This document shows positions 2,313-58,512 of a stretch of DNA of 64,000 nucleotides, in pieces. Within the stretch, counting starts at the first letter, position 1. Every line of letters begins with the position of its first letter. A program made the position numbers and the translations under genes. The notes beneath the pieces are model-generated. The model was not told the origin of the DNA and did no database searches. It saw only the letters and a list, made by a program, of their open reading frames with translations. Source of the DNA: Halorhabdus rudnickae (GTDB lineage: Archaea; Halobacteriota; Halobacteria; Halobacteriales; Haloarculaceae); contig NZ_CAAHFB010000005.1 in NCBI RefSeq assembly GCF_900880625.1, positions 1 through 64,000 of the forward strand, read 5' to 3'.

Positions 2313-4315
2313 TTCGCGAGAAGCTTCCATTCCCACGAACCGACGACGAACAGCCAGACGAAAACGAACACGGAGCGTCCGACAGTAGCCACAGCGACGA
2401 CGGCGACGAAGGCCGCGAGACGCGAGCGGTCACCGTCGAGTACGACCGGTCGGACGAGGCGGTCGGCACCGTCCCGGAGATCCACCAGTCGCTGGTCGCA
2501 CCCTCGGCCATCGAGCGGACGCCCGCCGCGATCCGGACCGGCGATCGGTGGGCGAAGACGCTGTGGGCCGGCGAGTATCCCGACGCGCCGATGGATGGCT
2601 TCCTTGAGGAAGTCTACGCGGCCGCCGAAACGCGAACGACCGACGTGAGCATTCACCTCGATCCGCGCGACACGCAGGCGACGCTGGACACCCTCGAAAA
2701 CCGGATCGAGGACCTCCAGGCCGACCTCGAGTATCTGACCGAGAAGCACCGCGCGAGTTCCCGCGGCGTCGAGAAGGACCTCGCCGACCACGAGGAGATG
2801 TACGACGTCCTCCGGAACACGCCGATGGAGGCCTTCGACATCTCGACGTATCTCGCCGTTCGGGGCGAGGACCGCGACGACGCGGACGCCAGCGACGTGA
2901 TCACGACTGCGCGGCGAGCGCCAGCGAATCTGACGCCCGTCGCGCCGCGCTGGTCACAGTTGGACGCGCTCACCGCAGCGAGTCCGATCGCGACCGACGA
3001 GTTCGACGAGACGCTGGACGCGACGACGCCCATGCTCGGCGGCGCAGTCGGCGCGATGTTCCCCTTCGTTTCCGGTGCGTTCGCCGAGCCAGGGATCGAA
3101 TACGGCACCTACGCGCTCAACGAGAGCCCGCTGATCCTCGATCGCTTCGCGCGGGAAACCGGCTACTGTACCATGATTATCGGCCGCCTCGGCGCGGGCA
3201 AATCCTTCGCGACGAAGTTGCGACTGGTTCGGCGGGCGATGTACGACGAGGATACGATCGTCGTCATGCTCGACCCGATGCGGGGGTTTGCGGGCGTCAG
3301 CGAGGCCCTCGGCGGCGAGCAGATCACCGTCGGTGGGACGCGCAGGCTGAACCCGCTGGAGATCAAGCCGACGCCCGAGCACGTCCTCAACGCGGTGGAT
3401 GACCTCGACCCGTGGGGCGAGCAGATCACGTGGGTGATGACCTTCTTCGGGACGTTCTTCGAGCACGTCGCGGACAACCCGCTCGGCGAGCGCAGTCAGA
3501 CGCTCCGCCGGGCGACGCAGGCGGCCTACCGCCGGCAGGGAATCACGCGCGATCCGGCGACCCACGCGAAAGCGTCGCCGACGATCCGGGACGTGATCGC
3601 CGTGCTGGAGGACTTCGCCGCCGATCCCGGCGAGTTCGGCTACGAGACCGACGGCGAGAAACAGGCCGTCCGCAAGGACGCCGAGTCGCTGCTGAAGGAC
3701 CTGCGACCGTCGTTCCGTGATGAGGGGGCGTTGGCCAACCTCGCGAAGCCCACCGAGTTCGACCTGGATTCGAAGGTCATCTACCTGGATCTCCACCAGG
3801 AGGAGGGCGCGGAGGGCCGAGCGGAGACGACGCTGACGATGCAGGTGCTGTTCAACAGCGTCTACGAGCGCGTCAAGCAGACCGAGAAGAAGGTCGTGTT
3901 CACCATCGACGAGGCCCACTACCTGATGAACGACGCCTCGTCGCTGGACTTCCTGGAAACGGCCGTCCGGCACAGCCGGCACTTCGATCTGAGTCTGGAG
4001 TTCGTCACGCAGACCGGCGGCGAGTTCGCGCTCACGCCGGAGGCCCGGACCATCGCCAATCTCTGTTCGATCACGCTGCTCCACCGCGTGAACGAGGAGG
4101 ACGACAAGATCGCACAGTGGTTCGACCTGAACGATCGGCAGGCGAGTTGGGTCACGTCGGCGAAGGCCGGCGAGGACGAGGACGGCTACTCCGAGGCGCT
4201 GATCGGGATCGATCAGGAAGGCTGGTTCCCGCTGCGGATCCGCGCGAGCGACTACGAGGCGAGCGTGATCGACGGCGGCGGGGACTTCGACGGAGGTGGC
4301 GAGTCGGGGACATGA
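2309..4315 (+). CDS. VirB4-family conjugation ATPase
   Basis: A 668-aa ATPase expected to power a conjugation-type channel at the membrane. Walker A is GRLGAGKS (about residues 292-299) and Walker B is VFTIDEAH (D534), followed by a histidine and an arginine-rich C-terminal lobe typical of VirB4/TraC. Residues 1-100 are acidic and probably flexible. The start ATG overlaps the previous stop by 4 nt and the stop overlaps the next start by 4 nt, so this is the core of a tightly coupled operon. Confidence 0.82.
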   Translation: MIREKLPFPRTDDEQPDENEHGASDSSHSDDGDEGRETRAVTVEYDRSDEAVGTVPEIHQSLVAPSAIERTPAAIRTGDRWAKTLWAGEYPDAPMDGFLEEVYAAAETRTTDVSIHLDPRDTQATLDTLENRIEDLQADLEYLTEKHRASSRGVEKDLADHEEMYDVLRNTPMEAFDISTYLAVRGEDRDDADASDVITTARRAPANLTPVAPRWSQLDALTAASPIATDEFDETLDATTPMLGGAVGAMFPFVSGAFAEPGIEYGTYALNESPLILDRFARETGYCTMIIGRLGAGKSFATKLRLVRRAMYDEDTIVVMLDPMRGFAGVSEALGGEQITVGGTRRLNPLEIKPTPEHVLNAVDDLDPWGEQITWVMTFFGTFFEHVADNPLGERSQTLRRATQAAYRRQGITRDPATHAKASPTIRDVIAVLEDFAADPGEFGYETDGEKQAVRKDAESLLKDLRPSFRDEGALANLAKPTEFDLDSKVIYLDLHQEEGAEGRAETTLTMQVLFNSVYERVKQTEKKVVFTIDEAHYLMNDASSLDFLETAVRHSRHFDLSLEFVTQTGGEFALTPEARTIANLCSITLLHRVNEEDDKIAQWFDLNDRQASWVTSAKAGEDEDGYSEALIGIDQEGWFPLRIRASDYEASVIDGGGDFDGGGESGT

Positions 4316-7300
4316 CGCGGGAGTACGTCCAGGTCACGCCCTTCCGGAGCGACCTCGCGCCCGGGACGGTCGTCGAACAACTCGGCGCGCTGCATGCGCT
4401 CGATTCGAATAGTGGCGGTTTGCTTGCCGGTCTCGACTCGCTCGGAGACGGCGGGCCACCCACCTTCGAGTTTCTCACGATCAGCGCCGGCAGCGACGAA
4501 CCGGTCGAGTTCTACTACGGCGCCGACCGGCGTCTCGACGCATTCGAGGAGCGACTCCGGACGCTGTATCCCTCGACGTTCGTCGTCGAGCGCGCGCAGG
4601 TCGATCCGATGGCCCGCCTCGTTCCTGACGGCGAAGTCGAGGACCGCGAGAGCGACGTGATCGACGAATTCGAGCCCCGGGGCGTCCGGTGGGTCGGCGA
4701 CGCGATACGCACGCGGGACTGGATGACCACGATTCCGGCGTTTACCGACACAGTCGGGCAGGGCGATGACCACTCCCGCGCGCCGCTGGCACCGCTGATC
4801 GATCGACTCACCGCTGCCGACCATCCGGTCGCGTTCCAGGTACTCTTCGAGCGCAAGCCCGACTGGACGGCAGACGCTCGGGCCCGCGAACGACGCCTGC
4901 GCGACGGCGAAGATCGTCTCCTCGATCGATTCCTGAGCGAACTCTTCGTCGGGGCCGGCGCCGACCGCAATGCGGTCGATGCGGACGAGTTCCAGGACCC
5001 CGGCGGTCGCGAGCGTGTGACTTCGATCGAGAACAAACGGCCCGGACGGACGTTCACCGCGAACCTGCGAGCGCTCGCTCTCGTTCCTGACGAAGAGAAG
5101 GGTGAAGACGACGAAGACAGCGAGGCAATCGATCGGCTACTCGAGGACCTCGTGCCTACCTTCGATCACCTTTCGGGAACGCACTACGGCGTGACGGGGC
5201 GGCGACTTAGCGATGGCTGGCTGGAGGAGCGCCGCGCCACCCGCGCATTCGCTCGCTTTCGCGAGCGCGAGATCACCACCGGTCGATGGGGATCGATTCG
5301 GCCCGACCTCGTACTCAACGCCGACGAACTCGCGAACGTGACGGTCGTCCCGCCCTCGACACAGCTCACGACCGAGGGCGGTCGCGGTGCCGAGGCGAAC
5401 CCCGAGAGTCGGTCGCCGCTTCCCCGGCCGACGGCCGACCACATGGACCAGTTCCGCGAGGGGATGGCGATCGGGTACGCCCTCGACGAGAACGGCGAAC
5501 CCGAAGATGAACCCACGCGCGTCCCGCCAGGCTTGCTCACGACGCACTACCTCCGGGCGGCGACGACCGGCGCCGGCAAGTCCAAGGCCCTGGTCAACGA
5601 CGCGCTCTCGCTATACGAGGCAACCGACGGTCCGGTTGTGCTGATCGACCCGAAGGGCGACGGCATGAGCGAGAACTACATGCGCGCCCACGCCGCCCGC
5701 TTCGGGGCCGACGACCTCGCGGCGAACGTCCTGCACTTTCCCGTGCCGGACGTGCTGCCGGGCTTTTCGTTCTTCAATATCGAGCGCGACCTCGATGCCG
5801 GCCGAGCGCGGGTGGACGCCGTCCAGAACGTCGCCGATCACTACGAGGAGATCCTGAAACTCGCGATGGGCGAAAACCGTTACGAGCAGGCTATCGTCGC
5901 GCCGAACCTGATCAAGTACCTCGTCAAGGCGCTGTTCGACGAGGAGTACGGACGCGAGAACGGCCTCTACCGCGAGTCCGTCGATTACTTCGCCCACACG
6001 CAACTCGAGCACGTCCTCGATCAACTGTGGGCCGCGGGCCCGCCGGACGGTGACATCAGCGAAGCCCCGCAGGCCAGTCAGAACGAGGTCCAGCGGAAGA
6101 TCAATCGCCAGCTCGAACTCGATTCGAACACCTTCGCGACGGTCATGGGCGGGGTAAGCAACCGCCTCGATTACGTCACTCAGGACGCCCACCTGCGGCG
6201 GATCTTCGACAACACCGAGCCCCGCTTCGACTTCCGGGACGTCCTCGACGAGAACACGGTCGTCCTCTTCGACCTCGGCGACCTCCGCGACGAGGCCGCC
6301 CGACTGATGACCGGCGTGATCCTGACGAACCTCGAGGATGCCCTGGAGACCCGCGATCGGACCGTCGATGAACTTCCAGAGGACTACGCGGTGAACCTGC
6401 TCGTTGACGAGGCGGCGTCGGTCGTCGTCTCGGACGTGATGAACGACCTGCTGGAGAAAGGCCGGAGTTTCGGGCTCTCGGTCGGTCTCTCCCTGCAGTT
6501 CCCCGAGCAGATCGAGGCTGAGGGCGACCATCAGGTGTATCTCAACGTGCTCAACGACGTGGCGACGACGCTCGTCGGCAAGATCGCCGTCGATCGCGAG
6601 ATCGCGCGGGCGATGGCCCACGAGGAGATGGACCCCGCAGCGTTCGCCAACCGGATCCGGTCGCTCCCGCGCGGCGAGTGGATCGCCCAACTCCCGAGTC
6701 CGACCTTCGGCGAGACCGGGCCCGAACCGTTCAGTCTCGAACCGCTGCCGATCCCGGATGGTCATCCCGAAAGCGACGACCCGCTCGACCGCCGCCAGGA
6801 GCGGCAGTTCGCGGACGCCCTCGAACGGGTCCACGAGCGAACGGCGGCCGAGTACGGCGTGCCCGAAGACGACGATCTGCCGGTCGATCGAACGCCCGAC
6901 GCCGTCCGGGAGATCCTCGGCGCGGACGATAGCGGTCTGGATCGAGCGCTGGCGAGCGCGATCCGGATCGTCCAGATGCGGACTGGCGAGCACGAGACCA
7001 ACGGTTGGGTGCCGGTCGCCGACGTGGACGACGAACTCCGGGCCTGTTACGACGCCGCCGACGTAGAAGAGCCACCGCCGGAGTACGAGACTCTTGCCGA
7101 CGTGCGCGAGCGGTCGCGACTCATCAACGTAGATCTCGACGATTCGGGCGAGACGGTCGTCGCCCGGTTGACCGACGCGGGCGAGGACGCCGTCGCCATC
7201 GACACCGGCGACGTTCGAGCGGCCGGCGGGGATCGCCACGACGCCATGCTCGCCGAGATCGAGCAGGCGCTGACGCCGCTCGGATTCACCGTCACGATCG

Positions 7301-8343
7301 AGGAGCAGGACGGCGCCGATCGCCCCGACGCGACGGCGTTCCACCCGGACCTGGACGTCGAATTTTACGTCGAGGCCGAGACGACCACGCCCGACAAGCC
7401 GGCGAAGGTGCTCCGGAACTTCCGCCGAGCGCAGGACGACGGGTGCATCCCGCTGTTCGTCGTCGAGACTGGCGTCGAGTCGGTGACCCACTGGGCCGAG
7501 CGCCTCGACGGCATTCTGAATCCGCCCGTCAAGCGACGGACGGGCGGCGAGACCCACTTCTACATCACCGACGAGTCGATCACGTTCGGTGGCGGGGCCC
7601 GAGCGGAAGGTGGCGCTACTGCCGTCCGGCCGGTAACCGATGGATCGCGACGGACCGTCTGGGTCGAGGATGGCGACGAGTTTGTGCTTCGCGACGGCAA
7701 GGGGACCGATCACGCTCGCGTTGACGATCCAACCGACCCGTCGAAGGACCGATTCCCCGCGCTCTACAGCTACGACCCCGGATCGGGCGAGTTCACCGTT
7801 CGCGAGCACGGCGAGACACACGTCTACGACTCCCGGGACGCCTTCGAGGCGGACTGGGTTCGCGTGCGCCGGCCGTTCGTTCCCGCAATCGAGTTGGGCG
7901 ACTCGGCGTTCGGGGCCGAAGCGTACGCGACCGTGATCGTTCCCGGCGATAGCGGGGACCTGGACGAACCGGTCGTCTTCGAGGACGGGGCGATCCGATC
8001 GCTCGACACCCTGACCGAGTTCGAGACTGGAACGGCGGACTCCACCGAGGAAGCTGATCGATGGGCCGACCTCGCAGATGACCCGGACGCAGCGATCGGC
8101 GTGTTCGCGGCCGAGCGTCTCCGGGAGGACGGTGACGCCACAGTCACGACGGCCGCCGTCTATGATGCCTACTGCGAGTGGGCCGAGGACCGTGGCTTGC
8201 CCGTCGAGTCGAAGAACTGGTTCGCCCGGCGATTGAGCAATCACGTCAGCTTCGAGCGGACGGCGGAGAACCGCGATGGTACGACAGTCCGGTGTTACGC
8301 GGGGATCGACCTTCAGGGGGGATCCGGCAATGACAGTGCCTGA
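4312..8343 (+). CDS. VirD4/TraG-like coupling ATPase with nuclease-like C-terminal domain
   Basis: A 1,343-aa protein from the ATG at 4312 (ATGA overlap with VirB4). Walker A is TTGAGKSK (near S424) and Walker B is NLLVDEA (D699-E700), with a VLIDPKGD strand just after Walker A, as in VirD4-type coupling proteins that feed DNA to the channel. Far longer than usual: after the ATPase a region at about 1000-1050 reads RPDATA (D1006), then YVEAET (E1021, E1023) and KPAKVLRNFRRAQ. This resembles a PD-(D/E)XK-fold nuclease core with E-x-E in place of E-x-K. No clear transmembrane helix is seen at the N terminus. Confidence 0.8.
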   Translation: MTREYVQVTPFRSDLAPGTVVEQLGALHALDSNSGGLLAGLDSLGDGGPPTFEFLTISAGSDEPVEFYYGADRRLDAFEERLRTLYPSTFVVERAQVDPMARLVPDGEVEDRESDVIDEFEPRGVRWVGDAIRTRDWMTTIPAFTDTVGQGDDHSRAPLAPLIDRLTAADHPVAFQVLFERKPDWTADARARERRLRDGEDRLLDRFLSELFVGAGADRNAVDADEFQDPGGRERVTSIENKRPGRTFTANLRALALVPDEEKGEDDEDSEAIDRLLEDLVPTFDHLSGTHYGVTGRRLSDGWLEERRATRAFARFREREITTGRWGSIRPDLVLNADELANVTVVPPSTQLTTEGGRGAEANPESRSPLPRPTADHMDQFREGMAIGYALDENGEPEDEPTRVPPGLLTTHYLRAATTGAGKSKALVNDALSLYEATDGPVVLIDPKGDGMSENYMRAHAARFGADDLAANVLHFPVPDVLPGFSFFNIERDLDAGRARVDAVQNVADHYEEILKLAMGENRYEQAIVAPNLIKYLVKALFDEEYGRENGLYRESVDYFAHTQLEHVLDQLWAAGPPDGDISEAPQASQNEVQRKINRQLELDSNTFATVMGGVSNRLDYVTQDAHLRRIFDNTEPRFDFRDVLDENTVVLFDLGDLRDEAARLMTGVILTNLEDALETRDRTVDELPEDYAVNLLVDEAASVVVSDVMNDLLEKGRSFGLSVGLSLQFPEQIEAEGDHQVYLNVLNDVATTLVGKIAVDREIARAMAHEEMDPAAFANRIRSLPRGEWIAQLPSPTFGETGPEPFSLEPLPIPDGHPESDDPLDRRQERQFADALERVHERTAAEYGVPEDDDLPVDRTPDAVREILGADDSGLDRALASAIRIVQMRTGEHETNGWVPVADVDDELRACYDAADVEEPPPEYETLADVRERSRLINVDLDDSGETVVARLTDAGEDAVAIDTGDVRAAGGDRHDAMLAEIEQALTPLGFTVTIEEQDGADRPDATAFHPDLDVEFYVEAETTTPDKPAKVLRNFRRAQDDGCIPLFVVETGVESVTHWAERLDGILNPPVKRRTGGETHFYITDESITFGGGARAEGGATAVRPVTDGSRRTVWVEDGDEFVLRDGKGTDHARVDDPTDPSKDRFPALYSYDPGSGEFTVREHGETHVYDSRDAFEADWVRVRRPFVPAIELGDSAFGAEAYATVIVPGDSGDLDEPVVFEDGAIRSLDTLTEFETGTADSTEEADRWADLADDPDAAIGVFAAERLREDGDATVTTAAVYDAYCEWAEDRGLPVESKNWFARRLSNHVSFERTAENRDGTTVRCYAGIDLQGGSGNDSA

Positions 8344-47032: not shown

Positions 47033-49915
47033 CTATCTGATCCGCGAGTCATCAATGTCATCAGTCGTAGCAGATTCACGTTCGACATCGATCAATGCCG
47101 AGAGTTCCGCTGTCGATAGTGCCTCCACCTCAACGCGATCCCCTCGTGACGTATAAAACAGACTCGCCGAGACCGTCCGATCGGGATACAACTGCCGGAC
47201 GACGTGATAATAGACGCTTAGCTGTTTGCGATACTCCCCATGGGCGTCCCGCGTGAGATCAGTCTTGTAGTCCACGATCTCGACACGCTCCTCAGAAACA
47301 CAGAGGAGGTCGATCACGCCGGAGATCGTCACCTGCTGATCGCCGACCGACACCGGAAGATACGCGTCCTCTTCAACATACAACTCCCCCTCCAGCCCAT
47401 CGATAAACTCTCGCACCTGCCGTTCGTCATCACTCGCGGGCTCGATCTCCTCACCGGCAGCGTACCGCTCGGCAAACTCGTGAACCTGATTCCCGAACTC
47501 GATCCCGCGACCGTCCGCACGCTCCTCGAACACGCGGTCGTCCATCAGGGCGTGGGGCGTCTGGCCCGCCGGCACGTCGGGCTCGGGGATCGACACCTGC
47601 AATCGCGTCTGTTCGGTCCGGTCGATCCCGGCCGCCTCGAGGTCCGGCTCGACAGACTCCGGTTCCAGCGGCAGGTTCTCGAACAGTGGACTCGGCTCCG
47701 CGCCCGCCGAAAAGAGCAGGTGATCCTGGGCTCGCGTCATCGCGACGTAGAGCAGACGGCGCTCTTCGTCGTAGTCACGACCCAGACACGCCGAGAGCAC
47801 GCGATACCGCCAGTTGTCGTAGAGGTGCGGCCGGCCGTGTGCCGTCGCGGAGATCTTCGTCTGGCGCAGGCCGATCGGATCCTCGTAGCGAATCCGGTCG
47901 TCGCCGCCACCCGATGGCGGGAAGCTGTACCGGTTGACGTTCGCGACGATCACGATCGGATGTTCCAGCCCCTTGGCCGCGTGGATCGTCTGGACGGTGA
48001 TCGAGTCGCCGCCCGGGTTGTCGTCGATCTCGTGAGTCGCCTCGGCCTCCAGACTCCGCTCGATGAAGCGGATCATCCCGCCGAGATTCCGCGTCGTTCC
48101 GTCCGAGACGTCCTGCAGGAGGGCGACGAGCGAACTCGCGTAGGCGTCCTCAAATCCGTAGCGCTCGAAGACCTGGCGGGCGATCGCCCCGATCGACTCC
48201 ATCGCCGCGAGTCGCTCTCGGAATGTGACTATCGCGTCGGGATACGCTCGCTCGTCGAGAATCTGCTCGACCTCCGCGAGCGTATACCCTGCCCGCTCGA
48301 GGACGACCGCCCAGCCACGTCGCGAGTGTTCGTCGGCGAGAATCCGGAGCCACGCGAGCAACAGGATCGCCTGATCGGTCTCGAAAAGCTTCACGCCGCC
48401 CTCGTAGGCGACTGGCACGTCGAACTCGTCGGCCGTGGTCTGCAACTCCCGCCCGAAGCGTCGCGTCCGGGTGAGGACGGCGATGTCGTCGTAGCTCGGC
48501 GGGCGAAGATCACCGTTCTCGTCCCCCACTGCGTAGGCGTCGTTGCCGACGATCGTCTCGATCCGGTCGAGGATCGCCTCGTGTTCGGTCGCGCTCGCGA
48601 ACGCCTCGATCGTCGAGTGGTCCCGATCAGTCGCCGCCTCGAGTCCGTCAATATCCTCGACAGTCAGATCGACCGACTCGCTGCCTGTCGCGGGCACCGT
48701 CAGCGCGTGCCGCGAGAGGTCCAGGATCGACTGTGTCGAGCGGTAGTTCCGCCGAAGCGGGATCGTGTTCACCTCTTCGACGGGAAAGCCGACGCGTTCG
48801 TGCTCGCCGTTGAGTTCGCGTTTGTACGCCCGCAGTCGACGTTCGAACGAGCGAATGTTCTCGACTGAGGCGTACTGAAAGCCGTAGATCGACTGTTTCC
48901 AGTCCCCGACGACACAGAGGTTGTCGGTCCCGGCGAGCAGCAGTGCCAGCTTGAACTGGATCTCGCTGGTGTCCTGGAACTCGTCGACCATCACCTGCTC
49001 GAAGGCGATCGACTCCCGGAGCGCGTGATCCTCACACAATTGGACGAACGCGAACAGCTGGAGGAAGCTGAAGGTGAGGTAGTTCCGCCGGAGCGCGAAC
49101 TGGATGTACTCGACGTAGACATCGTGGACGAAATCCTTCAGTGCCTCGCGATCCTCCGCGAACGCTTCCTCGGCCCACTTCGCGTCGATCGAGGGATAAC
49201 CGTCTCGCAACTCGTCCTCGCTGGGTGCGTCCGGGAGGAAACAGCGATCGCGCTCGAAGCCGCTTAGGGAGTCCCGCAGGTCCGATTGCGTGGCTCCGTT
49301 GACACCCTCGTTCGGCGCGTTCGTCTCGGCGAAGACCTCCTCAAAGGCCTCGAAATCCCCGTCCAGATAAGCCTCGCCGTCGCGATACCAACCGTCCACG
49401 GTGGGGAAGACACCCTTTGCGGCGAGTTCTCTGATCAGCTCGAGCAGGGATGTCGGGTCGTTGAGCACGCGGAACACGGCCTCGTGTTCGGGATGCGTGT
49501 CGACGAACTGCGAGAGGAAGGTCCGGAAGCGGTCGGCCTCGATGACCTCGTTCTCGAGCAGCTGTGTTGAACCGGTAATCTGATCGTCGATGCCCAGATA
49601 CGACGGCGCGTCGGCCCCGTATTCCAGCAGCAGGTCGTGACAGAAGCTGTGGAACGTGCTGATCGGGGCGTCCCGGAGTGCGGACATCGAGTAGTCACAC
49701 CGCGCGACGACGCGTTCTTTCATCTCCGTGGCGGCATTGTTCGTGAACGTGACCAGCAGTACGTCCTCGGGCTCGTAGCCCTCCCGGAGCAGATTCGCAT
49801 ACCGGCGCGTGATGGCGAACGTCTTGCCCGTCCCCGCGCCGGCGTCGACGACGTGAATCCCCTCGGTCGCCTCGATCAGCTCGCGCTGCCGGGCGTTCGG
49901 CGTGGGTTCAGTCAT
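47033..49915 (-). CDS. AddA/UvrD-like helicase-nuclease
   Basis: A 960-aa SF1 helicase. The Q-motif region is NARQRELIEA, Walker A DAGAGTGKTFAI, motif II VMVDEFQDTSE, motif V/VI VQTIHAAKGLEHPIV and LLYVAMTRAQD. The C-terminal ~150 residues are a RecB/Cas4-type nuclease with VEIVDYKTD and QLSVYYHVV. This is the AddA layout, processing DNA ends for repair or degrading foreign DNA. Its start overlaps the AddB-like stop by 8 nt. Confidence 0.85.
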   Translation of the reverse strand: MTEPTPNARQRELIEATEGIHVVDAGAGTGKTFAITRRYANLLREGYEPEDVLLVTFTNNAATEMKERVVARCDYSMSALRDAPISTFHSFCHDLLLEYGADAPSYLGIDDQITGSTQLLENEVIEADRFRTFLSQFVDTHPEHEAVFRVLNDPTSLLELIRELAAKGVFPTVDGWYRDGEAYLDGDFEAFEEVFAETNAPNEGVNGATQSDLRDSLSGFERDRCFLPDAPSEDELRDGYPSIDAKWAEEAFAEDREALKDFVHDVYVEYIQFALRRNYLTFSFLQLFAFVQLCEDHALRESIAFEQVMVDEFQDTSEIQFKLALLLAGTDNLCVVGDWKQSIYGFQYASVENIRSFERRLRAYKRELNGEHERVGFPVEEVNTIPLRRNYRSTQSILDLSRHALTVPATGSESVDLTVEDIDGLEAATDRDHSTIEAFASATEHEAILDRIETIVGNDAYAVGDENGDLRPPSYDDIAVLTRTRRFGRELQTTADEFDVPVAYEGGVKLFETDQAILLLAWLRILADEHSRRGWAVVLERAGYTLAEVEQILDERAYPDAIVTFRERLAAMESIGAIARQVFERYGFEDAYASSLVALLQDVSDGTTRNLGGMIRFIERSLEAEATHEIDDNPGGDSITVQTIHAAKGLEHPIVIVANVNRYSFPPSGGGDDRIRYEDPIGLRQTKISATAHGRPHLYDNWRYRVLSACLGRDYDEERRLLYVAMTRAQDHLLFSAGAEPSPLFENLPLEPESVEPDLEAAGIDRTEQTRLQVSIPEPDVPAGQTPHALMDDRVFEERADGRGIEFGNQVHEFAERYAAGEEIEPASDDERQVREFIDGLEGELYVEEDAYLPVSVGDQQVTISGVIDLLCVSEERVEIVDYKTDLTRDAHGEYRKQLSVYYHVVRQLYPDRTVSASLFYTSRGDRVEVEALSTAELSALIDVERESATTDDIDDSRIR

Positions 49916-52490
49916 CGCTGCCCTCCTCGGTCAACAGCAGGTCGCGATGGGTCACGCGATCCAGGTTGGGATCGCCGACCGGGAACGACGACTCGCGGTA
50001 GTCGTTGATGAGATCGATCTGCTCGTCGAGGAACGACTCGAACGCCTCCAGGTCGTCATGGAAGTAGTTCTCGCCACGGAGATCGAGCAGCGTTTTGAGC
50101 GCGCTCTCGATCCCCGACGTGACGTACTTGTACTCGCCGACGCGGTCGCGAGCGTACCTGACGAACGCGTCCGCAAACTCTGTATCGAGGAGTTCGTCCT
50201 TCTCCTCGACGTCGGGAAACGCGTGCCCGTTGAGAAACCGGGCATACGCGTCGTATCCCAGCTTTTCGAGTGTCTTCCGTCGATCATTACTCTCCGCGAC
50301 GCCCTCACAGAGTGCGTCGAACGCCGTCTGCGTACCCGCCCACTCGTCGAACGTCTCGGGATAGTACGTCACGCGGACGAGCGCGTCCTCGATGTCTGCG
50401 GTCCCGGTAATGGCGTCGTCGACCAGATCCAGGAAGTGATAGAACACAAAGTCGATCGGTTCGCCCGGCTGGACCCGTCGTTGGTGGGCAAGATAGAGGA
50501 GCGCCTGGAAGTCCGGTTTGTCGTGAATCTCCTCGATCGACGAGCGATCCACGACCTGTGACGCGGAGTTCGCCGACCCGCTCTTGTAATCGAGGAGTTG
50601 CGTCGGCGAGTGGACGAGATCGACCTTGCCCTTCCCACCGAGCGAGCGGTTCTCGAACCACTGTTCGGTGATCGGCGAGTCGACGGGCCGGTCGAAGTGC
50701 TCGGCGACCACGTTCTCGAAGGGGAGCGCCGTGTACCCGGCGTAGTCACGCTCGATCGGCGGATTCTCGTCGATGAATCGCTGGATGAGTTCGAGCCCCA
50801 CGGCAAATTCTGTTTCGAGGACGTCACGATCAACCTGATCGACGAATGGCCGGAGTTCGTCGAGAAAAAGATCGGTGAGCTCCGCTCGATCCGCGTCGGC
50901 AATCACGTCGGGATGATTGACGTAGAACTCGGCGAAGTCGTGAAAGCAATTCCCTTTCCGGAAGTAGTCCCGATCGGGTTGTTCGACGAGCTGGTCGAAG
51001 AAGTACTCGCGCGGACAGTTGACGAACGTCGACAGACTCGACTGGCTGATCGTCTCGATCGGTTCGGGCGCTGCGGCGACGGGGTCGTGCTCGAAACCGG
51101 TCGATCCATCCCCTCGCCGATAGGTGTGCGGGATGGTCTCGAAGTCGTCGAACGTCTCGATGTCGTCGTCCAGCAGGTCGTGGAAGTACAGACACGGCCG
51201 GACCGACTCGCCGGCGCTGGTTGCCTGGACGAGATAGTACTGTTCGCGACCGTTCTGGAGGAGCAACTGGAACTGCCGGAGGTGTTCACGGTCTTTCCGT
51301 TCGGTGTCGATCCACGGCCGATCGATGACCCGGTGGGTCCAGTCGGCATCCAGTCCGAGATAGAAGACGGCGGGCCGGTCGACGTACGTCGAGGTGTTCG
51401 CGTCGGCGAGCAGCACGCCGCTGTCCTCGCGGTCGATCGGCACGTCGAACGCACCCAGATAGAATGCGAGGTCGTCGAGTCGGTCGTCCGTGACCGGTTC
51501 GTCCGCCAGCCCGAGCACGTCGAGTTCGTCACGGACGGCGTCCAGCGACCGGTCCGACAGCCCCTCGAATTCCGCGAGCGCTTCGCCGAAGGTCCATTCG
51601 CCGACATTCTCGCAGAACGCCTGGATCGGTTCGGCCGCCGCACTCTCGAGTTCAGCCAGGAGTTTGTCCTCGTCGTCGACGGGGAGGTCGATTCCGAGTC
51701 CGCGAGCGATCGGTCGCACGTCCCCGACGCGCGCTCTCGAATCGGCGTGGGCCAGCCTGAGCAATTCGAGGAACGTCCGCAGTCCCTCGTCGTCGGCGAA
51801 GCCTGGCCCGCCGTAGAAGGGGATATCTCGCGCTTCGAGTGCCGACTCGATCAGCGCGGGGAACGGCCCGCCGCGGTCCATGACGATCGCCACGTCCTCG
51901 GCGTTGTCGCTGGTCACGTTGTCCACGATCGCCTCGACGATCGCCGTCCGGGACGCGAAGCTGTGGAACGGCGGCAGGTCAAACGCTTCGCTCGTGAGCG
52001 GGTCGATCACGTCGTATTCGGCGGGCAGGATCGACCGGTCCAGCTCGCTGAACTGGGATTCGCCGATGACGGCGACCTCACGGTCGTCGTCGATCCGGTA
52101 CTCCTCAAGATCGCGATGCGCACTCTCGACAGACTCGATGACGTCGAGTACTTTACGTGTTGCCGGTGTATCATAGCGTTCGAATTCGAGGATCGCCTGT
52201 CGATCACCTGTCTCCTCCCAGCAACCGAGGATCAGTTCGACCAGATGGGCGGCCTGCTTCCAGGGAAGGGTCGCTTTCTCGATTACCGCAAGAAAGAGCT
52301 CTCGTTGATCCTGTGGACGAAATTCGTCAGCCGCCAGCATCTGTGGCGTGGCCGCGAACCGACCGAGCCGTGGGTGGTCTAACCGTCGATTGAGCGCGAG
52401 ACTGAGCGGCGCGTCGACCGTCAACACGAGATCGTAGCCCGCCACCGCCTCGAAGAGATCGTCGATAGAGCGGGCCCGTTGAATTGGCAT
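49908..52490 (-). CDS. AddB-like nuclease partner
   Basis: An 860-aa protein from ATG 52490; the frame runs further upstream but is implausible there. The N-terminal ~500 residues look like a helicase fold without Walker motifs, as in AddB. The C-terminal nuclease has ISQSSLSTFVNCPREYFF, then GGKGKVDLVHS, then LLDYKSGSA and FQALLYLAH. Only one Cys of the AddB iron-sulphur set is apparent, so the cluster may be absent. Paired and coupled with the AddA-like gene. Confidence 0.72.
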   Translation of the reverse strand: MPIQRARSIDDLFEAVAGYDLVLTVDAPLSLALNRRLDHPRLGRFAATPQMLAADEFRPQDQRELFLAVIEKATLPWKQAAHLVELILGCWEETGDRQAILEFERYDTPATRKVLDVIESVESAHRDLEEYRIDDDREVAVIGESQFSELDRSILPAEYDVIDPLTSEAFDLPPFHSFASRTAIVEAIVDNVTSDNAEDVAIVMDRGGPFPALIESALEARDIPFYGGPGFADDEGLRTFLELLRLAHADSRARVGDVRPIARGLGIDLPVDDEDKLLAELESAAAEPIQAFCENVGEWTFGEALAEFEGLSDRSLDAVRDELDVLGLADEPVTDDRLDDLAFYLGAFDVPIDREDSGVLLADANTSTYVDRPAVFYLGLDADWTHRVIDRPWIDTERKDREHLRQFQLLLQNGREQYYLVQATSAGESVRPCLYFHDLLDDDIETFDDFETIPHTYRRGDGSTGFEHDPVAAAPEPIETISQSSLSTFVNCPREYFFDQLVEQPDRDYFRKGNCFHDFAEFYVNHPDVIADADRAELTDLFLDELRPFVDQVDRDVLETEFAVGLELIQRFIDENPPIERDYAGYTALPFENVVAEHFDRPVDSPITEQWFENRSLGGKGKVDLVHSPTQLLDYKSGSANSASQVVDRSSIEEIHDKPDFQALLYLAHQRRVQPGEPIDFVFYHFLDLVDDAITGTADIEDALVRVTYYPETFDEWAGTQTAFDALCEGVAESNDRRKTLEKLGYDAYARFLNGHAFPDVEEKDELLDTEFADAFVRYARDRVGEYKYVTSGIESALKTLLDLRGENYFHDDLEAFESFLDEQIDLINDYRESSFPVGDPNLDRVTHRDLLLTEEGSDD

Positions 52491-53006
52491 ACTCTGAGTC
52501 CTGCCTGACGTAACAAAAAGGGTCGTCCTCGTCACTAACGGACACCCTGGTGGCGAGAAGATCTGAATGGACCAATCCATCACGAATGGATATGTGATGT
52601 GAATGGAGTTCCACTGAAATGAGAGAAGCAATTAACACGGGTTCCTTCGATATTGCCGTAGAAACATATATTCACTGAGACTGATATTATATCATATCAG
52701 TAACAATTGCTGCGTCGATGGAAAGACATCACAGAGGTGCCAGAGGCCCCCCGTTCCACGATAGATATCATCGAGTATGGGCTGGGGAAACAACAGCGAG
52801 CGAAGTGTATCTGAATCGGCTACTGTGTTGTCTGTTGGACCTTGACCAAACCACATCAAATGGGTACGGACTTTCTCGAGGGATTGCTCGATGCTTGAGT
52901 CTTCGAATTCAATGGATTTGTTGATGACGTCGTCTGAAAGATAGCTTGAAAGCGTGGAAATGGGTGAGAAGATCGTTGTTCATGGTACAACAATCGTTCG
53001 TAAGGC
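52491..53006. other. 516-nt region holding the helicase operon promoter and a gene remnant
   Basis: The left part (to about 52690) is AT-rich and should contain the minus-strand promoter of the AddB-AddA operon. The right part contains the decayed nuclease fragment listed separately. No intact gene. Confidence 0.4.
52708..52913 (+). pseudogene. Decayed fragment of a PD-(D/E)XK nuclease-type gene
   Basis: A continuous protein-like sequence is spread over three frames: EVPEAPRSTIDIIEYGLG then KQQRA; EVYLNRLLCCLLDLDQ in the next frame; then HQMGTDFLEGLLDA ending in a stop. This resembles the N terminus of haloarchaeal PD-(D/E)XK nuclease family proteins as I remember them. The two frame changes and loss of the rest show it is a relic. 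Confidence 0.45.
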
Positions 53007-53903
53007 CTACTCCCAGACTTCTTCGTATTGGCCAACTTCGAGAAAGTATTCGTCGTCGTCAACGACTGGTCGGGGGACGAGACCATCGTCGAAGTCACGG
53101 AGGTGGCCGAGGTGGATTGGGAGGTGGCCGTCTGCGGGGTCGTCTGATTGGCTTGTAGCAACGAGTCGGCGGTTGACGAGGCGGAGTGTGCTTGTATTGT
53201 CGTTGGTTTCGGCGCGTTGTTTCCAGGTGGAGATCGCTTGTTGGACTTCGTTCCCTTTGGCTTGTGTGACGTCGTTATGTGGGACGTTAATCCAGATGTG
53301 GCCGTGTTCAGTGACATAGAGCCGGCCGGGATTCGGGCGGTACTCGTCGTACGCGGCTATGAGTTCGGAGTGGTCGAAAATTGAGGTGAATCGATAGTCA
53401 CGCCACTTCCAGATGAGTTGATCATCGTGGCTGACTGCCCACCGTTCGCCGTGTTTGAACGGGAAGCCCTGCCAGATTGCGATCCCGTTTTCCGGTGGGT
53501 CTGGGTCGGTATCGACGGAGCCGAAATCAAGTGTGCCGTTGAGTTTGCCAAGATAGGCCGGGATCCAGCCGGTGGAAACGGGGGCCTGATCGGTGTTCGC
53601 GTAGTTGTCGGCTTTGACTTTCGTTAGGACTTCTCCCTGGGCGGTGACGCGGAAACTCCCGTAGCCGTCTTCTTTCCCGGCTGTGTTCATAGCGGTCCAG
53701 AGGTCAGTGGGCGGATCCGCGTGGATGGAAAGGTCGCGTTGTTCCCATTTCAGAACAACGTCGTCGCCAAAGTCGTCGTCGCTGACGAGGCTGTATTGTG
53801 AACCACGGTACGCGGACGGCCACGGTTGGCCCGGTGCGACTGAGACGGCTTGGTCCTCGCTGATCGGTACCTTTGTTGGGGTTTGTTCGAATGTAAGTGT
53901 CAT
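53007..53903 (-). CDS. Unknown 298-aa protein, last of the zinc-repeat/Mrr operon
   Basis: The start overlaps the Mrr-like stop (ATGA). Rich in Trp, Asp and beta-strand-like segments (IAIWQGFPFKHGERWAVSHDDQ, LYVTEHGHIWINVPHNDV); no transmembrane helix, Cys cluster or nucleotide-binding motif. Its conserved pairing with the genes upstream cannot be checked here. It may be a structural or binding subunit of the same system. Confidence 0.6.
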   Translation of the reverse strand: MTLTFEQTPTKVPISEDQAVSVAPGQPWPSAYRGSQYSLVSDDDFGDDVVLKWEQRDLSIHADPPTDLWTAMNTAGKEDGYGSFRVTAQGEVLTKVKADNYANTDQAPVSTGWIPAYLGKLNGTLDFGSVDTDPDPPENGIAIWQGFPFKHGERWAVSHDDQLIWKWRDYRFTSIFDHSELIAAYDEYRPNPGRLYVTEHGHIWINVPHNDVTQAKGNEVQQAISTWKQRAETNDNTSTLRLVNRRLVATSQSDDPADGHLPIHLGHLRDFDDGLVPRPVVDDDEYFLEVGQYEEVWE

Positions 53904-54916
53904 TCTGAGTCCTCCGTGAGTTTAGCTGCGAAGCGATCGAATGCGTCGACATCACCGTCTTCATCTGGGTCCGCGTACAGAACGCCATGCTTGCCGTGTT
54001 CTTCTGGGGCAGTGTCTAGTACTGATTCAGTACTGTCTTCGGGCGCCGAGTCGGACTCCGATTGTTGGTCGTCGCGAGACGTGTTTGACCCGGTCGTCTC
54101 GGAGGGTGTTTCGTGGGTAAATTCTCGGTTCAGTGTGCTCGCTGCTGGTTCGATATTCGGGGGCTGCCGATCCAGTGGGTCGATCTCCTGGAGGGTAGAC
54201 GGGAGTGGTGGAAGGTCGTTGAGGATGTCGTCGTATTCCTCCTGGGTTAGGTCATGTTGTTCAACGATTGTGCCGAGAACTTCGTGGGAGAGTTGAACGT
54301 CAGTAAACCACTGGTCGAGTGTCGGTTGCTCGATGAGTGTGATCTCTTGGGCCTCTGCTACCTCGTGGGCGTCATCGGTGAACGACGAGTTGGAAACGAT
54401 CACGGTCGACGAAGCACCGCGGCCCGTCGCCGGAGTGGTATTCCCCTCTGCGACTGTGTGCACGATGTCACTGCCGCGGGTGGACCCCGGGTCGGTGGGT
54501 GCAGTTTTGATTGCGACGGTCGTGTGCTGGCGGTTCCAGAAGAGATCCACGACGACGTCGTCAACTGTTTCTGGTGTCTGGAAGCTTCCCTCGTAGCGGG
54601 AGAGAGTGGCTCCAAGGATCCGAGCGAAATCATGAGCGTTGAGATATGCTATGTCTGCGGTAGACACAATCCGTGATGGCGAGGTTCGTCGCGGGCCCGT
54701 GTCGGTTGGGGACGACGCTGTCTCAATGTTGTCGGGGAGTTGATCGCGAGCATTCTCGACGAGGGTCGTGATCCGGTCACGGGGCGCGTCGAGTTCGTGC
54801 GTTGCAAAGACATCGACGATTTGTTCAGTTGTAATCGCCTTGTCTTCGATTGCGCGTCGAATGGACTCGGTGATCGATCCTGGTTGATACCACTGAGGAT
54901 GTTGCTGTTGACTCAT
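53900..54916 (-). CDS. Mrr-like protein with degenerate active site
   Basis: A 338-aa protein. Residues ~1-65 are helical and may bind DNA. Residues ~90-215 follow the Mrr restriction-fold pattern: HDFARILGATLSRYEG, VVVDLFWNRQH (D124), VAIKTAP (A135, K137), SSTVIVSNSSFTDDAHEVAEA, ITLIEQPTLDQWF. The E/Q of the E/Q-x-K pair is Ala, so cleavage may be lost and DNA binding kept. The last ~110 residues are acidic and disordered. Coupled by ATGA overlaps to genes on both sides. Confidence 0.65.
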   Translation of the reverse strand: MSQQQHPQWYQPGSITESIRRAIEDKAITTEQIVDVFATHELDAPRDRITTLVENARDQLPDNIETASSPTDTGPRRTSPSRIVSTADIAYLNAHDFARILGATLSRYEGSFQTPETVDDVVVDLFWNRQHTTVAIKTAPTDPGSTRGSDIVHTVAEGNTTPATGRGASSTVIVSNSSFTDDAHEVAEAQEITLIEQPTLDQWFTDVQLSHEVLGTIVEQHDLTQEEYDDILNDLPPLPSTLQEIDPLDRQPPNIEPAASTLNREFTHETPSETTGSNTSRDDQQSESDSAPEDSTESVLDTAPEEHGKHGVLYADPDEDGDVDAFDRFAAKLTEDSE

Positions 54917-56389
54917 GTGAACACCCCACGGAGTCGATCGATGACGCCGACATTTCGCCGATGTACAACCTCGTTAGTCGCTCGATCGACGACGACTATC
55001 TGGTTAGCTTTGAGCAGGTGTTTCCCGTATACGATGAGATACGCGCGGTTCGCTGCGCCGCGAACCGATCGGAACTCGTCTACGAGCTCGTCCGGAATGG
55101 AGTGAGTCGTCTCTCCGATCGAGATGCACGTCTCGCAACGGCCGTCCTCTAATGAGGTCGGCGCGTATCGCTGTTCACAAAGTTCGCAAGTCTCGGCGTG
55201 CACGTCACAGATGGGTTGCTGGCTGATTGGGGCAGTAGTGGTGTGTTCGTCACAAAGCTGCTCGTCGCCGACGACACACGTGTTGAGGTGGTCCGTGCAC
55301 AGCTGTGCTGACGGTTCCTCCGTTTTGCTAGCGCAGTGTGCACAGTAATCCAGGTGGCGCTCGCAGAACAGCTCGCCGTCTTCTGCACAGGGGACTGCGT
55401 GTTCGCTACACCGGGGTTCGCCACATGCGGAACAGGTGATTTGGTCGGATTCACAGACTGGTTCGCCGCAGGCTGTACACGCCTGGGTATGGCTGGCAGC
55501 GAACGGCTGGTCACAGTCAGTACAATGAACTGCGTCTGCTTCACAGACAAGGTCATCGCAGCCGGTGCAATCGAGGAAATGGTCAGCACAGAAGGCGTCC
55601 CCGCAGTCGTGGCACTGCACGATATGGTCGGGGCAATACCCAGTGGCGTCACAGATAGTGCAGTTCGTGATGTCATCCGGACAGGTGACGGAGCCGCAGT
55701 CGCTACATTGGCTCGCATGTGATGGGCAGACCGCGCTGCCACAGGTGTCACAAGTCTGGGCGTCTGTGTCACAGCACGGTTGTTCACAGTGTTCGCATTC
55801 AACGATATCGTCAACACAGAATGTTTCCCCGCAGTGTGGACAGTCGCGAGCGTGGTCGGGGCAGACCGTTGTGTCGCAGGCGGTACAGTCGTTCCGGTGG
55901 GTCGAGCATAATGGGTCGTCGCAGTGATCGCAGACGTCGAGATGGAATGGACAGTAGTCGTCCCCGCAGTGCGGGCACTCGGTTGCATGTGTGACGCAGC
56001 GAGTGTCTCCGCACTCGGCACAGGTCGTTGAGTGTGACGAGCAGTGTTGCTCGCCGCATTCGCTGCACATGGTACTGTGGTCGTCACACGTCCAGTTGTG
56101 GCAGTCTGCGCAGTTCGTGAGATCGTCGTAGCAGAACTGCTCGCCGCAGTCTACACACGTAGTGGCGTGATTGGTGCAGAATTGGTCGCCGCAGTCTACG
56201 CAAGTCTCGACGTGGGCTGGACAGACAATGTCGCCGCAGTCAGTACATTCGGTGGCGTGATCTGAGCCGATTGTGTCATTACAGATGTCGCAGACAACCG
56301 TGTGATCCGTACAGTGCCACCCGTCGCAGTGCGCGCACTCGGCGGCGTGCTCAGTACAGACGGTGTCGCTGCACGTCTCACAAGTTTTT
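54913..56389 (-). pseudogene. Tandem 15-residue zinc-finger repeat protein, 5' end cut by ISH6-type element
   Basis: Open without interruption from the IS end to a stop at 54913; an internal ATG at 56070 could still give 385 aa. From the IS inward about 23 consecutive units of 15 residues follow the rule Cx2Cx4Cx2Hx3 (for example CAECGDTRCVTHATE, CPHCGDDYCPFHLDV), then a variable Cys-rich end and a ~90-residue globular tail (ANRAYLIVYGKHLLKANQIVVVDR). Each unit has a full set of zinc ligands. It likely continued into the membrane-protein fragment on the other side of the IS. No family recognised. Confidence 0.8.
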
Positions 56390-57838
56390 GGTCGTGTCGC
56401 AAAGTCCTCTAGAGTTCAGTAGCAACTGGCTCCCGTGAGGAACGGGTCGCCTCTGGTGTCCAACCTGAGAGGTGACCCATGCACGCCACAATCGACGTGC
56501 GGTTGACTGTTAGCATCGACGACGACAAAACGATACCGCTGGCCGCGCTGGCTGAGTTCATCACTGACCAGAACGTCGAGTCAGTTCTTCTCGAAGGACT
56601 GGTCGAGAGCCTCGACGCGAGCCGCGTCGAGGCGCTCTGTGGCGAGAAACACGCTCACGGCAATGGTGATCAGCGATTCCAACGAGCTGGAACCGATACT
56701 CGCACAGCTGTCACAACCGCCGGTGAGCACGAGTTTTCTCTCCACTACGTCGAGGATACCGACGCTGACCACGACGAAGCCAGCTACTTCCGGCCCGTTG
56801 AAGATGTTCTCAGCTTCGACGGGCAAAACCGCTATCAGCAGGACATAGCCGCCAAGAGTGTCGATCTCGCTACCTCGCTCAGCTATCGTGATGCTGCTGA
56901 CCACGGCGACGGCATCCTCTCGGAGATGCCGTCGCCGACCACTATCAACCGCCGCGCGAGAAAGTACGGCAGTAAGCTCAAGCAGTTCCTTCCCGACTGT
57001 GTCGCTGATACAGACGCTGATGCGGTTATTCCTGACGGCACGAAGTGTCACAGTCAAGACGACGACCGTTCGTACCACTCCGTCCAAGCCACGCTCGGCG
57101 AAGATACTGCAGAGGAGTCACGCTCCTTGCTGGATCTTTCGGTGAACGCTGATTGGGACGAGACAGCAGCTGACCTCAATGAGATCGACGCAGTCACTGA
57201 CGACGCGACAGTCGTCAGTGACGCTGATGACGGCATCGTTACGGCCTTTACCGACGAATACAGCGATCACCAACTCGATCTTGTCCACGTCGGCCGAACG
57301 CTGGACTACAACCTCTGGGACGATGGCGTGTTCTCCTTGGATCGACGGAACGAGATCGTCTCGGAGGTGATCGATGAGGTGTTCCATCTGAAAAATTCGG
57401 TCGCCAAGCACCGTTCAGACGAGGAGTTCGCGGCGATCCGCGAGCGGATCGCGCGAACGACCGAGCGTATCGAGAAGACAGCGTGGCAGTTGGATCAGTA
57501 CGGGTCAGAGAAGGCTGCGGGGTATCTACGGCGGTGGCTGCCGTCGATTGTGACGTTTGCCGAGCAGGCTGTCGAGGGGTTCGAGGTGCCGTGGACCTCG
57601 AACCCCGTCGAACGGCTGATGGGAGAAGTCAGCAAGCGCTGCAAGAACCAGTGGATGCGCTGGACAACGGAGGGATTAGAGGCGATACTCCAGCTTCGGC
57701 TGGTGAAGTACGCCGATCCAGAGTACTACCAGTCGTTCCTTGACGAACTGCTCCAGCGATCGACCAAAACAGCAATGAGCTGTGACCTCTCAATTGAGAG
57801 CACCAGAGGCAAACTCTAGATCGCTTTGCGACGCGACC
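56390..57838 (+). mobile_element. ISH6-type insertion sequence, 1,449 bp
   Basis: Bounded by 27-bp imperfect terminal inverted repeats (56390-56416 and 57812-57838; 23 of 27 match, ends ggtcg...cgacc). It encodes a single transposase. The length agrees with ISH6 elements as I recall them. The 8 nt outside the left end (aagttttt) and right end (aaaaactt) are reverse complements, not direct repeats, so no normal target duplication is seen. It separates two truncated minus-strand gene parts. Confidence 0.85.
56479..57819 (+). CDS. ISH6-family transposase
   Basis: A 446-aa intact transposase. It contains SPTTINRRARKYGSKLKQFLPDC, a DGTKCHSQDDD segment and VPWTSNPVERLMGEVSKRCKNQWMRWT near the C terminus, with Asp and Glu residues suited to a DDE active site. 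The family assignment comes from overall resemblance to the haloarchaeal ISH6 transposase. No frameshift or stop is seen, so the element could still be mobile. Confidence 0.85.
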   Translation: MHATIDVRLTVSIDDDKTIPLAALAEFITDQNVESVLLEGLVESLDASRVEALCGEKHAHGNGDQRFQRAGTDTRTAVTTAGEHEFSLHYVEDTDADHDEASYFRPVEDVLSFDGQNRYQQDIAAKSVDLATSLSYRDAADHGDGILSEMPSPTTINRRARKYGSKLKQFLPDCVADTDADAVIPDGTKCHSQDDDRSYHSVQATLGEDTAEESRSLLDLSVNADWDETAADLNEIDAVTDDATVVSDADDGIVTAFTDEYSDHQLDLVHVGRTLDYNLWDDGVFSLDRRNEIVSEVIDEVFHLKNSVAKHRSDEEFAAIRERIARTTERIEKTAWQLDQYGSEKAAGYLRRWLPSIVTFAEQAVEGFEVPWTSNPVERLMGEVSKRCKNQWMRWTTEGLEAILQLRLVKYADPEYYQSFLDELLQRSTKTAMSCDLSIESTRGKL

Positions 57839-58399
57839 AAAAACTTTGAATGCTTCTTCCGTGAGGAGAACAGAGCTATCGGAGGGTAGAACGCCGGCAG
57901 AGAGCCCATTCGGCTTTTGACCGTATTGTCCCGTAACGACCCGATATTTTATATCTGATACGAAACCGTCTCCGCACATTGAGATCTCTTCGTCATTCAG
58001 GGGACGTGTCGCCATAACTCCCTTCAAAATCCAGCCAGATACTAACAGGGTCCCCCCAATGAGAAGGACTCCAGCGGTGTACTCAGTGAACGACCTCCCG
58101 AGAACAATTAGCCCGCCGGCCATCAACATCATCGTCAGGCCGATCACGATGATCACTATCCGTTCGAGAGCATCACCCATTGACTCTTCTTCTTCAATGA
58201 TCTGCTTGACACCAGATCGGGCGCTCTTCCCCACTTCATACAGGAATCCAAGAGAGTACGTGGTGCCAAAAACGATCGGAACCATCCAAAGTACCACGGC
58301 TACCGGATCCATATTGGACTGAGTTAAAAAGAGGCTGACAAGAAGCACATATACAACAACCCCCACCCCCGTCCCCACTCTCACTGTCCGGGAAGCCAT
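57839..58399 (-). pseudogene. Membrane-domain gene fragment truncated by the ISH6-type element
   Basis: 187 codons from ATG 58399 (an earlier in-frame ATG at 58426 exists) to the IS edge; reading on into the IS gives an unrelated tail. Four hydrophobic helices: VGVVVYVLLVSLFL, AVVLWMVPIVFGTTYSLGFL, IVIIVIGLTMMLMAGGLIVL and TAGVLLIGGTLLVSGWIL. It then becomes soluble (CGDGFVSDIKYRVVTGQYG...LTEEAFKV). Same strand as the zinc-repeat fragment beyond the IS and facing it, so it may be its N-terminal half. Confidence 0.65.
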
Positions 58400-58512
58400 A
58401 CATCTCCGTTCTTGTTCCCGGAACAAAATATCACATGTGATTGATTCAGGTGACAGCTGCTAGTGGGGACCGTCTGGTCTAGCGATCTCCAACCCAACCA
58501 CTACCGAAAGAC

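Follow-up and report, generated by a model that had tools for sequence, protein, structure and literature searches.

Cross-brace zinc fingers, BR helicases and Mrr nucleases are all known. The cross-brace (binuclear treble-clef) fingers include the RING, FYVE, PHD and B-box domains, often bind proteins and, to our knowledge, stop at two zincs and eight ligands. The zinc sites in the CHY domain of Pirh2/RCHY1 are interleaved. This domain holds six zinc sites in one continuous N-terminal stretch (PMC10148881), and in cross-brace fingers the half-sites of two zincs interleave along the chain (PMC4999995). BrxHII and BR helicases are composed of TUDOR, SNF2 and inactive REase domains and, after these, an alpha/beta domain of five strands in which two long coiled-coil helices separate strands 4 and 5, and in the Type-1 BR helicase the SNF2, inactive REase, alpha/beta and nuclease parts are found in one chain (PMC12839542).

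Here, we describe a zinc array in a 64,000-nt stretch of Halorhabdus rudnickae DNA (hereafter the window) and its relatives in other archaea. We give a probability of roughly 0.5 to the reading that the array is the tail of a protein, B, of a haloarchaeal BR-like defense locus, in which a zinc-locked rod couples a split helicase (gene A and the N-domain of B) to an Mrr module (gene C).

A zinc array at the 3´ end of gene B

The features of the window that bear on the array are the following.

53,007 to 53,903, minus strand: gene D, encoding 298 aa without a known family and always found after C in large loci
53,900 to 54,916, minus strand: gene C, Mrr-like, 338 aa (PF04471, E 4.2e-6, above cut-off)
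54,913 to 55,125, minus strand: non-repeat domain of 70 residues that closes B, plus the stop codon, conserved in all intact B proteins
54,913 to 56,415, minus strand: open frame of the gene B fragment, 500 codons without internal stop
54,916 to 56,070, minus strand: longest ATG-started in-frame ORF left in the broken B, 385 codons, a putative coding sequence
55,126 to 56,382, minus strand: zinc array, ~23 regular 15-residue units and ~4 degenerate ones, 3´ part of truncated gene B
56,382 to 57,846, plus strand: ISH6-family insertion sequence (terminal inverted repeats and transposase) breaking gene B
56,382 to 56,416 and 57,812 to 57,846: ISH6 terminal inverted repeats (TIRs), 35 nt, 89% complementary
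56,479 to 57,819, plus strand: ISH6 transposase, 446 aa (NF041731, E 8.7e-116, above cut-off)

The original prediction of about 23 tandem 15-residue Cys/His units is confirmed on the minus strand, where the strict pattern C..C-x4-C..[HD] found 19 units in the window protein compared to a mean of 0.32 and a maximum of 3 in 2000 shuffles. The looser pattern C..C/C..D-x4..5-[CA]..[HD] fit 22 units in the window frame, and our own segmentation script, with which the unit boundaries were set, gave 28 when degenerate units near the C end were counted. The near-invariant unit length also held, with nearly all units 15 residues apart, and the reported swaps of His for Asp and losses of ligands are real (ligand 4 was H in 345, D in 120 and C in 64 cases across 19 relatives and the window). 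Inter-unit identity outside the ligands was ~14% in the window array. A young, expanding tandem repeat was ruled out by the conserved unit register and the missing DNA repeat, as TRF detected no DNA-level tandem repeat across the array.

The 500 residues of the window fragment include 77 Cys and 34 His, which could correspond to at least 25 zinc ions per protein. The array could thus be a device that stores or senses metal or oxidants and has no mechanical role. We consider this very unlikely, given that A, C and D are the constant neighbors of the array and metal-transport or redox genes were not seen next to it.

Intact relatives and the broken copy in the window

A whole B of 1095 aa is found on the Halorhabdus tiamatea plasmid pHTIA, is 89% identical to the window fragment across the shared part and consists of an N-domain, ~40 units and the 70-residue C-domain. 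In a scan of the order, B profile matches were detected in 74 of 392 genomes. Roughly one quarter of the 74 have an array-bearing B (675-1185 aa among those extracted), while the remaining matching genomes have B´, a homologue of 390-450 aa with the N-domain that, in the B´ sequences read, ends C-terminally in a single zinc ribbon. The array loci fall into three types.

Large locus: A, B, C and D; 9 of 10 such loci also have the divergent genes X and Y
Small locus: A, B (675 aa) and C
Intermediate locus: B of ~890-950 aa

In most large loci, the genes A to D are directly adjacent or overlapping, and in the window the start of C overlaps the stop of B (ATGA). X (~285 aa, no family) and Y (~970 aa, a ResIII helicase, PbeA/Dnd-restriction-like) form a divergent pair, as at 3579-7388 of one large locus (L053) and in its orthologues. 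On Haloferax lucentense pSVX82-3 (L078, 12,001-15,720), B is unannotated and is overprinted by short antisense ORF annotations.

Against these relatives, the window copy is a remnant, since the 5´ part of B, A, X and Y are all missing next to ISH6. No in-frame start codon is present upstream of array unit 1 in the window, and an intact short gene with an internal start was ruled out by the homologues of 675-1185 aa in a continuous frame. The 54,913-56,389 extent given in the original prediction holds for the array itself (~55,126-56,382), but 54,916-55,125 is the C-domain and 56,389 lies inside the ISH6 TIR, so that the first unit is the breakpoint of B and not its start; the truncation by ISH6 from 56,382 had been missed. 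The 5´ half of B is absent from the genome as assembled, and for the upstream genes A and Y the assembly has distant paralogues but no orthologues. By eye, the bases outside the TIRs showed no matching direct repeat that could be a target duplication. A membrane-protein-like ORF on the minus strand (57,629-58,426) has a 3´ end that enters ISH6 and appears truncated as well. The missing duplication and this second truncated ORF would fit deletion or recombination between ISH6 copies. An assembly gap at ISH6 is an alternative to deletion of the 5´ half of B, since copies that are 99-100% identical are located at the ends of four contigs of the same assembly (C3, C4, C5 and C6). Values of dN/dS relative to pHTIA were 0.24 for the B fragment, 0.25 for C and 0.09 for D, and may mostly reflect the history before B was broken.

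The proteins of the loci diverge at different rates. B (identity 0.40-0.43) and C (0.36) evolve alike and fastest, while A (0.70) and D (0.61) are slow; identity was 0.28 at the non-Cys positions of the array, and the mean pairwise identity of the B C-domain was 0.38 across ten large loci. The speed of B and C raises the possibility that the fast-evolving array surface recognizes a viral protein and thereby activates the helicase and nuclease components, as protein binding is common among cross-brace domains. Such an invader sensor seems unlikely to us: close relatives keep the register and number of the units without swapping or expansion (identity of orthologous units 0.86, 0.60 and 0.35 compared to 0.14 between units), and no viral partner is known. 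Phage records and viral contigs yielded no relatives of the array, B or the array-Mrr fusions described below, in scans that for the contigs detect close relatives only.

Zinc sites probably shared between neighboring units

We numbered the ligands of each unit C1, C2, C3 and L4 and examined their co-loss in 446 units from relatives, after removal of near-duplicate proteins, with 300 shuffles for comparison. Within a unit, C1 was lost together with C2 (phi 0.52) and C3 with L4 (phi 0.64), while C2 and C3 were anticorrelated (phi -0.13). Between units, loss of C1 or C2 in unit n was correlated with loss of C3 or L4 in unit n+1 (phi 0.39-0.47, as high in 0 of 300 shuffles), and the six pairs among these four ligands were the top six correlations overall (phi 0.39-0.64; next best 0.14). 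In core units C1 was lost 11 times, and each time the next unit lacked C3. Ten diverged arrays showed the co-loss as well (Fisher p at most 4e-11); for them, an inter-unit scheme left 57 half-filled sites compared to 102 ± 6 after shuffling and 119 with a within-unit scheme.

The co-loss of CxxC in one unit with CxxH in the next, together with the anticorrelation of C2 and C3 within a unit, points to one zinc joining neighboring units, with each zinc probably bound by the CxxC of unit n and the CxxH/D of unit n+1. The same rule explains lone half-sites at both array ends, seen most clearly in the fusion protein L080, whose array consists of CNKH, six units and CKKC. One finger per 15-residue unit was rejected on the co-loss, and the "15-residue zinc-finger unit" of the original prediction is therefore probably wrong. 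Adjacent pairing of CxxH in unit n with CxxC in unit n+1 was also rejected (phi ~0.10, no better than other offsets). With zincs held between neighbors, the units would lock into a continuous rod.

The array has the CxxC-x4-CxxH core of the cross-brace fingers, and its successive half-sites probably interleave as theirs do, judged indirectly by evolutionary co-loss across units. At its shortest, the rule gives a RING finger. In contrast to the known fingers, the array repeats the middle unit ~6-40 times, each unit probably sharing one site with each neighbor. The CHY domain of Pirh2/RCHY1 likewise has several zinc sites in one continuous domain, but belongs to a eukaryotic E3 ligase, has a different motif and lacks the 15-residue period. 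If the rule is correct, the array would be a new repeat architecture in which metal sites, not a hydrophobic core, link successive repeats, following a pattern as simple as the CxxC of one unit plus the CxxH of the following unit.

The intact haloarchaeal B array opens in a RING-like manner (CxxC-x12-CxxGHxVCxxCxxxCxxC), which could be taken as a sign of a scaffold for a RING-type ubiquitin-like ligase. This is highly improbable, as the remaining array is not RING spaced and no ubiquitin-like, E1 or E2 gene was noticed in a non-systematic look at neighborhoods of roughly 20 kb. The suggested "ubiquitin-type binder" thus has no support in the gene neighborhood despite the RING-like start.

Comparison with known families and structures

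None of the models in Pfam, NCBIfam, PHROGs or PADLOC matched the array above its cut-off, the best library match being Zn_ribbon_3 with 16 bits against a cut-off of 27 (Pfam, NCBIfam and PHROGs). No solved structure matched at E<0.01, and the weak PDB profile matches were to a FYVE domain (1vfy, E 0.01) and to the piggyBac CRD (5lme, E 0.057), both of which are cross-brace. Treble-clef comparison gave local matches to 1y02 and 3t7l at E>1 and no PDB match at E<0.001; the fold match to the FYVE-type 1y02 had an rmsd of 1.1 over 33 residues (prob 0.92, E 2.2). The profile matches and the short FYVE-type fold matches lend weak, independent support to zinc sites shared between units. PDB fold searches with both AF2 models returned nothing significant, and the confidence of these models (pLDDT 85 and 89, pTM 0.43-0.48) should be read knowing that AF2 is over-confident on repeat solenoids (PMC11795689). 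The original claim that the array belongs to no known family stands after these searches, as do its readings as a "rod of zinc sites" and a "scaffold", and no described zinc-repeat family in these libraries matched above cut-off. Neither an end-to-end cross-brace array nor a split array-bearing helicase was found in the literature covered; the survey of prokaryotic binuclear treble clefs by Burroughs et al. (2011) was outside this scope and may contain an earlier mention of the array.

In BFVD, the predicted array fold matched giant-virus proteins with low TM-scores (Edafosvirus, E 1.9e-10; Hyperionvirus; Bodo saltans virus). The entries A0A3G4ZUD0, A0A3G5AAD6 and A0A2H4UVQ9 (E 1e-10 to 1e-6) could have similar arrays.

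A helicase split between gene A and the N-domain of B

Gene A (~590 aa), which precedes B, encodes the motor half of an SNF2 helicase. In HHalign, A aligned with the BrxHII of the window itself over residues 85-628 (E 1e-54), and the N-domain of B aligned with it over residues 702-952 (E 1.7e-10). Without the coiled coil, the B N-domain still matched at E 1e-6, compared to 0.017 or worse for shuffles and for other proteins of the window. Since the two cover successive regions of BrxHII, the profile alignments show A and B together to be one BrxHII/DrmD-type helicase split over two genes, and they likewise show the B N-domain to be the predicted inactive-REase region plus the alpha/beta domain with its long coiled coil. 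The secondary structure predicted by AF2 for B (strands 117-141, 148-156, 316-339 and 344-352; helices 192-263 and 267-312) resembles the BR helicase alpha/beta domain. The split SNF2 helicase, the Mrr-like partner and the defense island were absent from the original prediction and could not be seen from the fragment.

The loci share with BR systems an SNF2 domain, an inactive REase and a C-terminal alpha/beta domain with a long coiled coil, followed on the C-terminal side by the nuclease. They differ from BR in having the helicase in two genes, a zinc array behind it and the Mrr partner as a separate gene. Moreover, no DUF499 ATPase or DUF1156 methyltransferase was found near array loci; both were detected only in three loci with B´, the zinc-less homologue (L065-L067), which by the DUF499/DUF1156 definition are BR systems with a split helicase. 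The SNF2 helicase was seen as two genes, A and B´, in four haloarchaeal DUF499/DUF1156 BR systems (L065, L066, L067 and L108). In one genome (G167), A and B´ are separate genes with a DUF1156-type methyltransferase directly after them, and no fused A-B protein was found. The text of the BR study does not contain "split", "Mrr" or "haloarch" (PMC12839542).

Membership in DISARM was rejected, as A scored 265 bits against the DrmD equivalog cut-off of 610. A search of 117 haloarchaeal genomes for the DrmD_b family gave zero matches, with controls likewise at zero. Zorya ZorD combines SNF2 with an Mrr-like nuclease, and PADLOC reported ZorD matches for both A and C; unlike Zorya, the array loci have the SNF2 and Mrr-like parts as separate genes, a zinc array and no ZorA/B that we noticed. 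If correct, our assignment defines a group of array-bearing loci in archaea whose core is a split BrxHII/BR-type helicase, and gives an identity to the N-domain of proteins labeled only "hypothetical" or missed in annotation.

Association of the array with Mrr and its proposed role

The Mrr_cat domain that gene C shares with Type IV/Mrr endonucleases keeps its catalytic motif in small loci (GDxGVD...QAK), whereas the catalytic D...(E/Q)xK is lost in the window and in large loci. Because the catalytic QxK is not conserved, the C of the window is probably a pseudo-nuclease, and with the motif degenerate no nuclease is identified in the window or large loci. In another class of the phylum (which we guess to be methanogens and label "methanogen-class"; L080-L094), zinc ribbons, Mrr and the array are found in one polypeptide of ~550 aa. 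In these fusions, for whose zinc array Pfam has no domain model, the Mrr ECK motif is intact and the array consists of six units with lone half-site caps. The array is like that of haloarchaeal B, but the fusions lack the A/B helicase part. Gene order and this one fusion family lead us to infer that B and C are in physical contact.

The fusions, together with the equally fast divergence of B and C, suggest a model in which the rod is a coupler. A supplies the SNF2 motor half and the B N-domain the C-terminal half of the helicase; B then bears the zinc array and the small C-domain, C is the Mrr-type partner, and D with the divergent X and Y completes the large loci. Zinc sites would tie the units end to end, continuing the cross-brace of RING and FYVE domains into a continuous rod that would fix the spacing between the Mrr module and the helicase or couple the two. 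The gene order A-B-C repeats the Type-1 BR chain, with the array in the position of the linker.

Given its helicase and Mrr company, the array could also be a DNA reader that uses its interlocked zinc sites to hold DNA, perhaps of viral origin and modified, and passes it on to the helicase and to the Mrr module. The piggyBac CRD, to which the array has its weak profile match, is a DNA-binding cross-brace finger (PMC8086355), and the methanogen-class arrays carry a net positive charge (+3 to +11 per ~124 residues). However, the haloarchaeal arrays are strongly acidic (net charge of -0.10 to -0.16 per residue, beyond that of their own N-domain), and the related cross-brace of Pgm does not bind DNA (PMC8086355). 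We thus consider a DNA reader unlikely and infer a tethering role for the array in preference to DNA reading or invader sensing. Its likeliest role would be that of a zinc-stiffened docking rod between the split helicase and the Mrr module of an archaeal DNA-defense complex. We put about even odds on the fuller reading, in which archaeal defense machines use an open-ended cross-brace of up to ~40 linked sites to join a split SNF2 motor rigidly to an Mrr-type module.

Other defense genes in the window

The window also has a complete-looking BREX locus on the minus strand (23,148-46,890), with BrxHII, PglZ, PglX, two BrxC/PglY-type genes, BrxB and BrxA, whose composition is type-5-like. Between this locus and the array remnant, an AddA/UvrD-like helicase-nuclease and a PD-(D/E)XK (AddB-like) protein are encoded on the minus strand (47,033-52,631).
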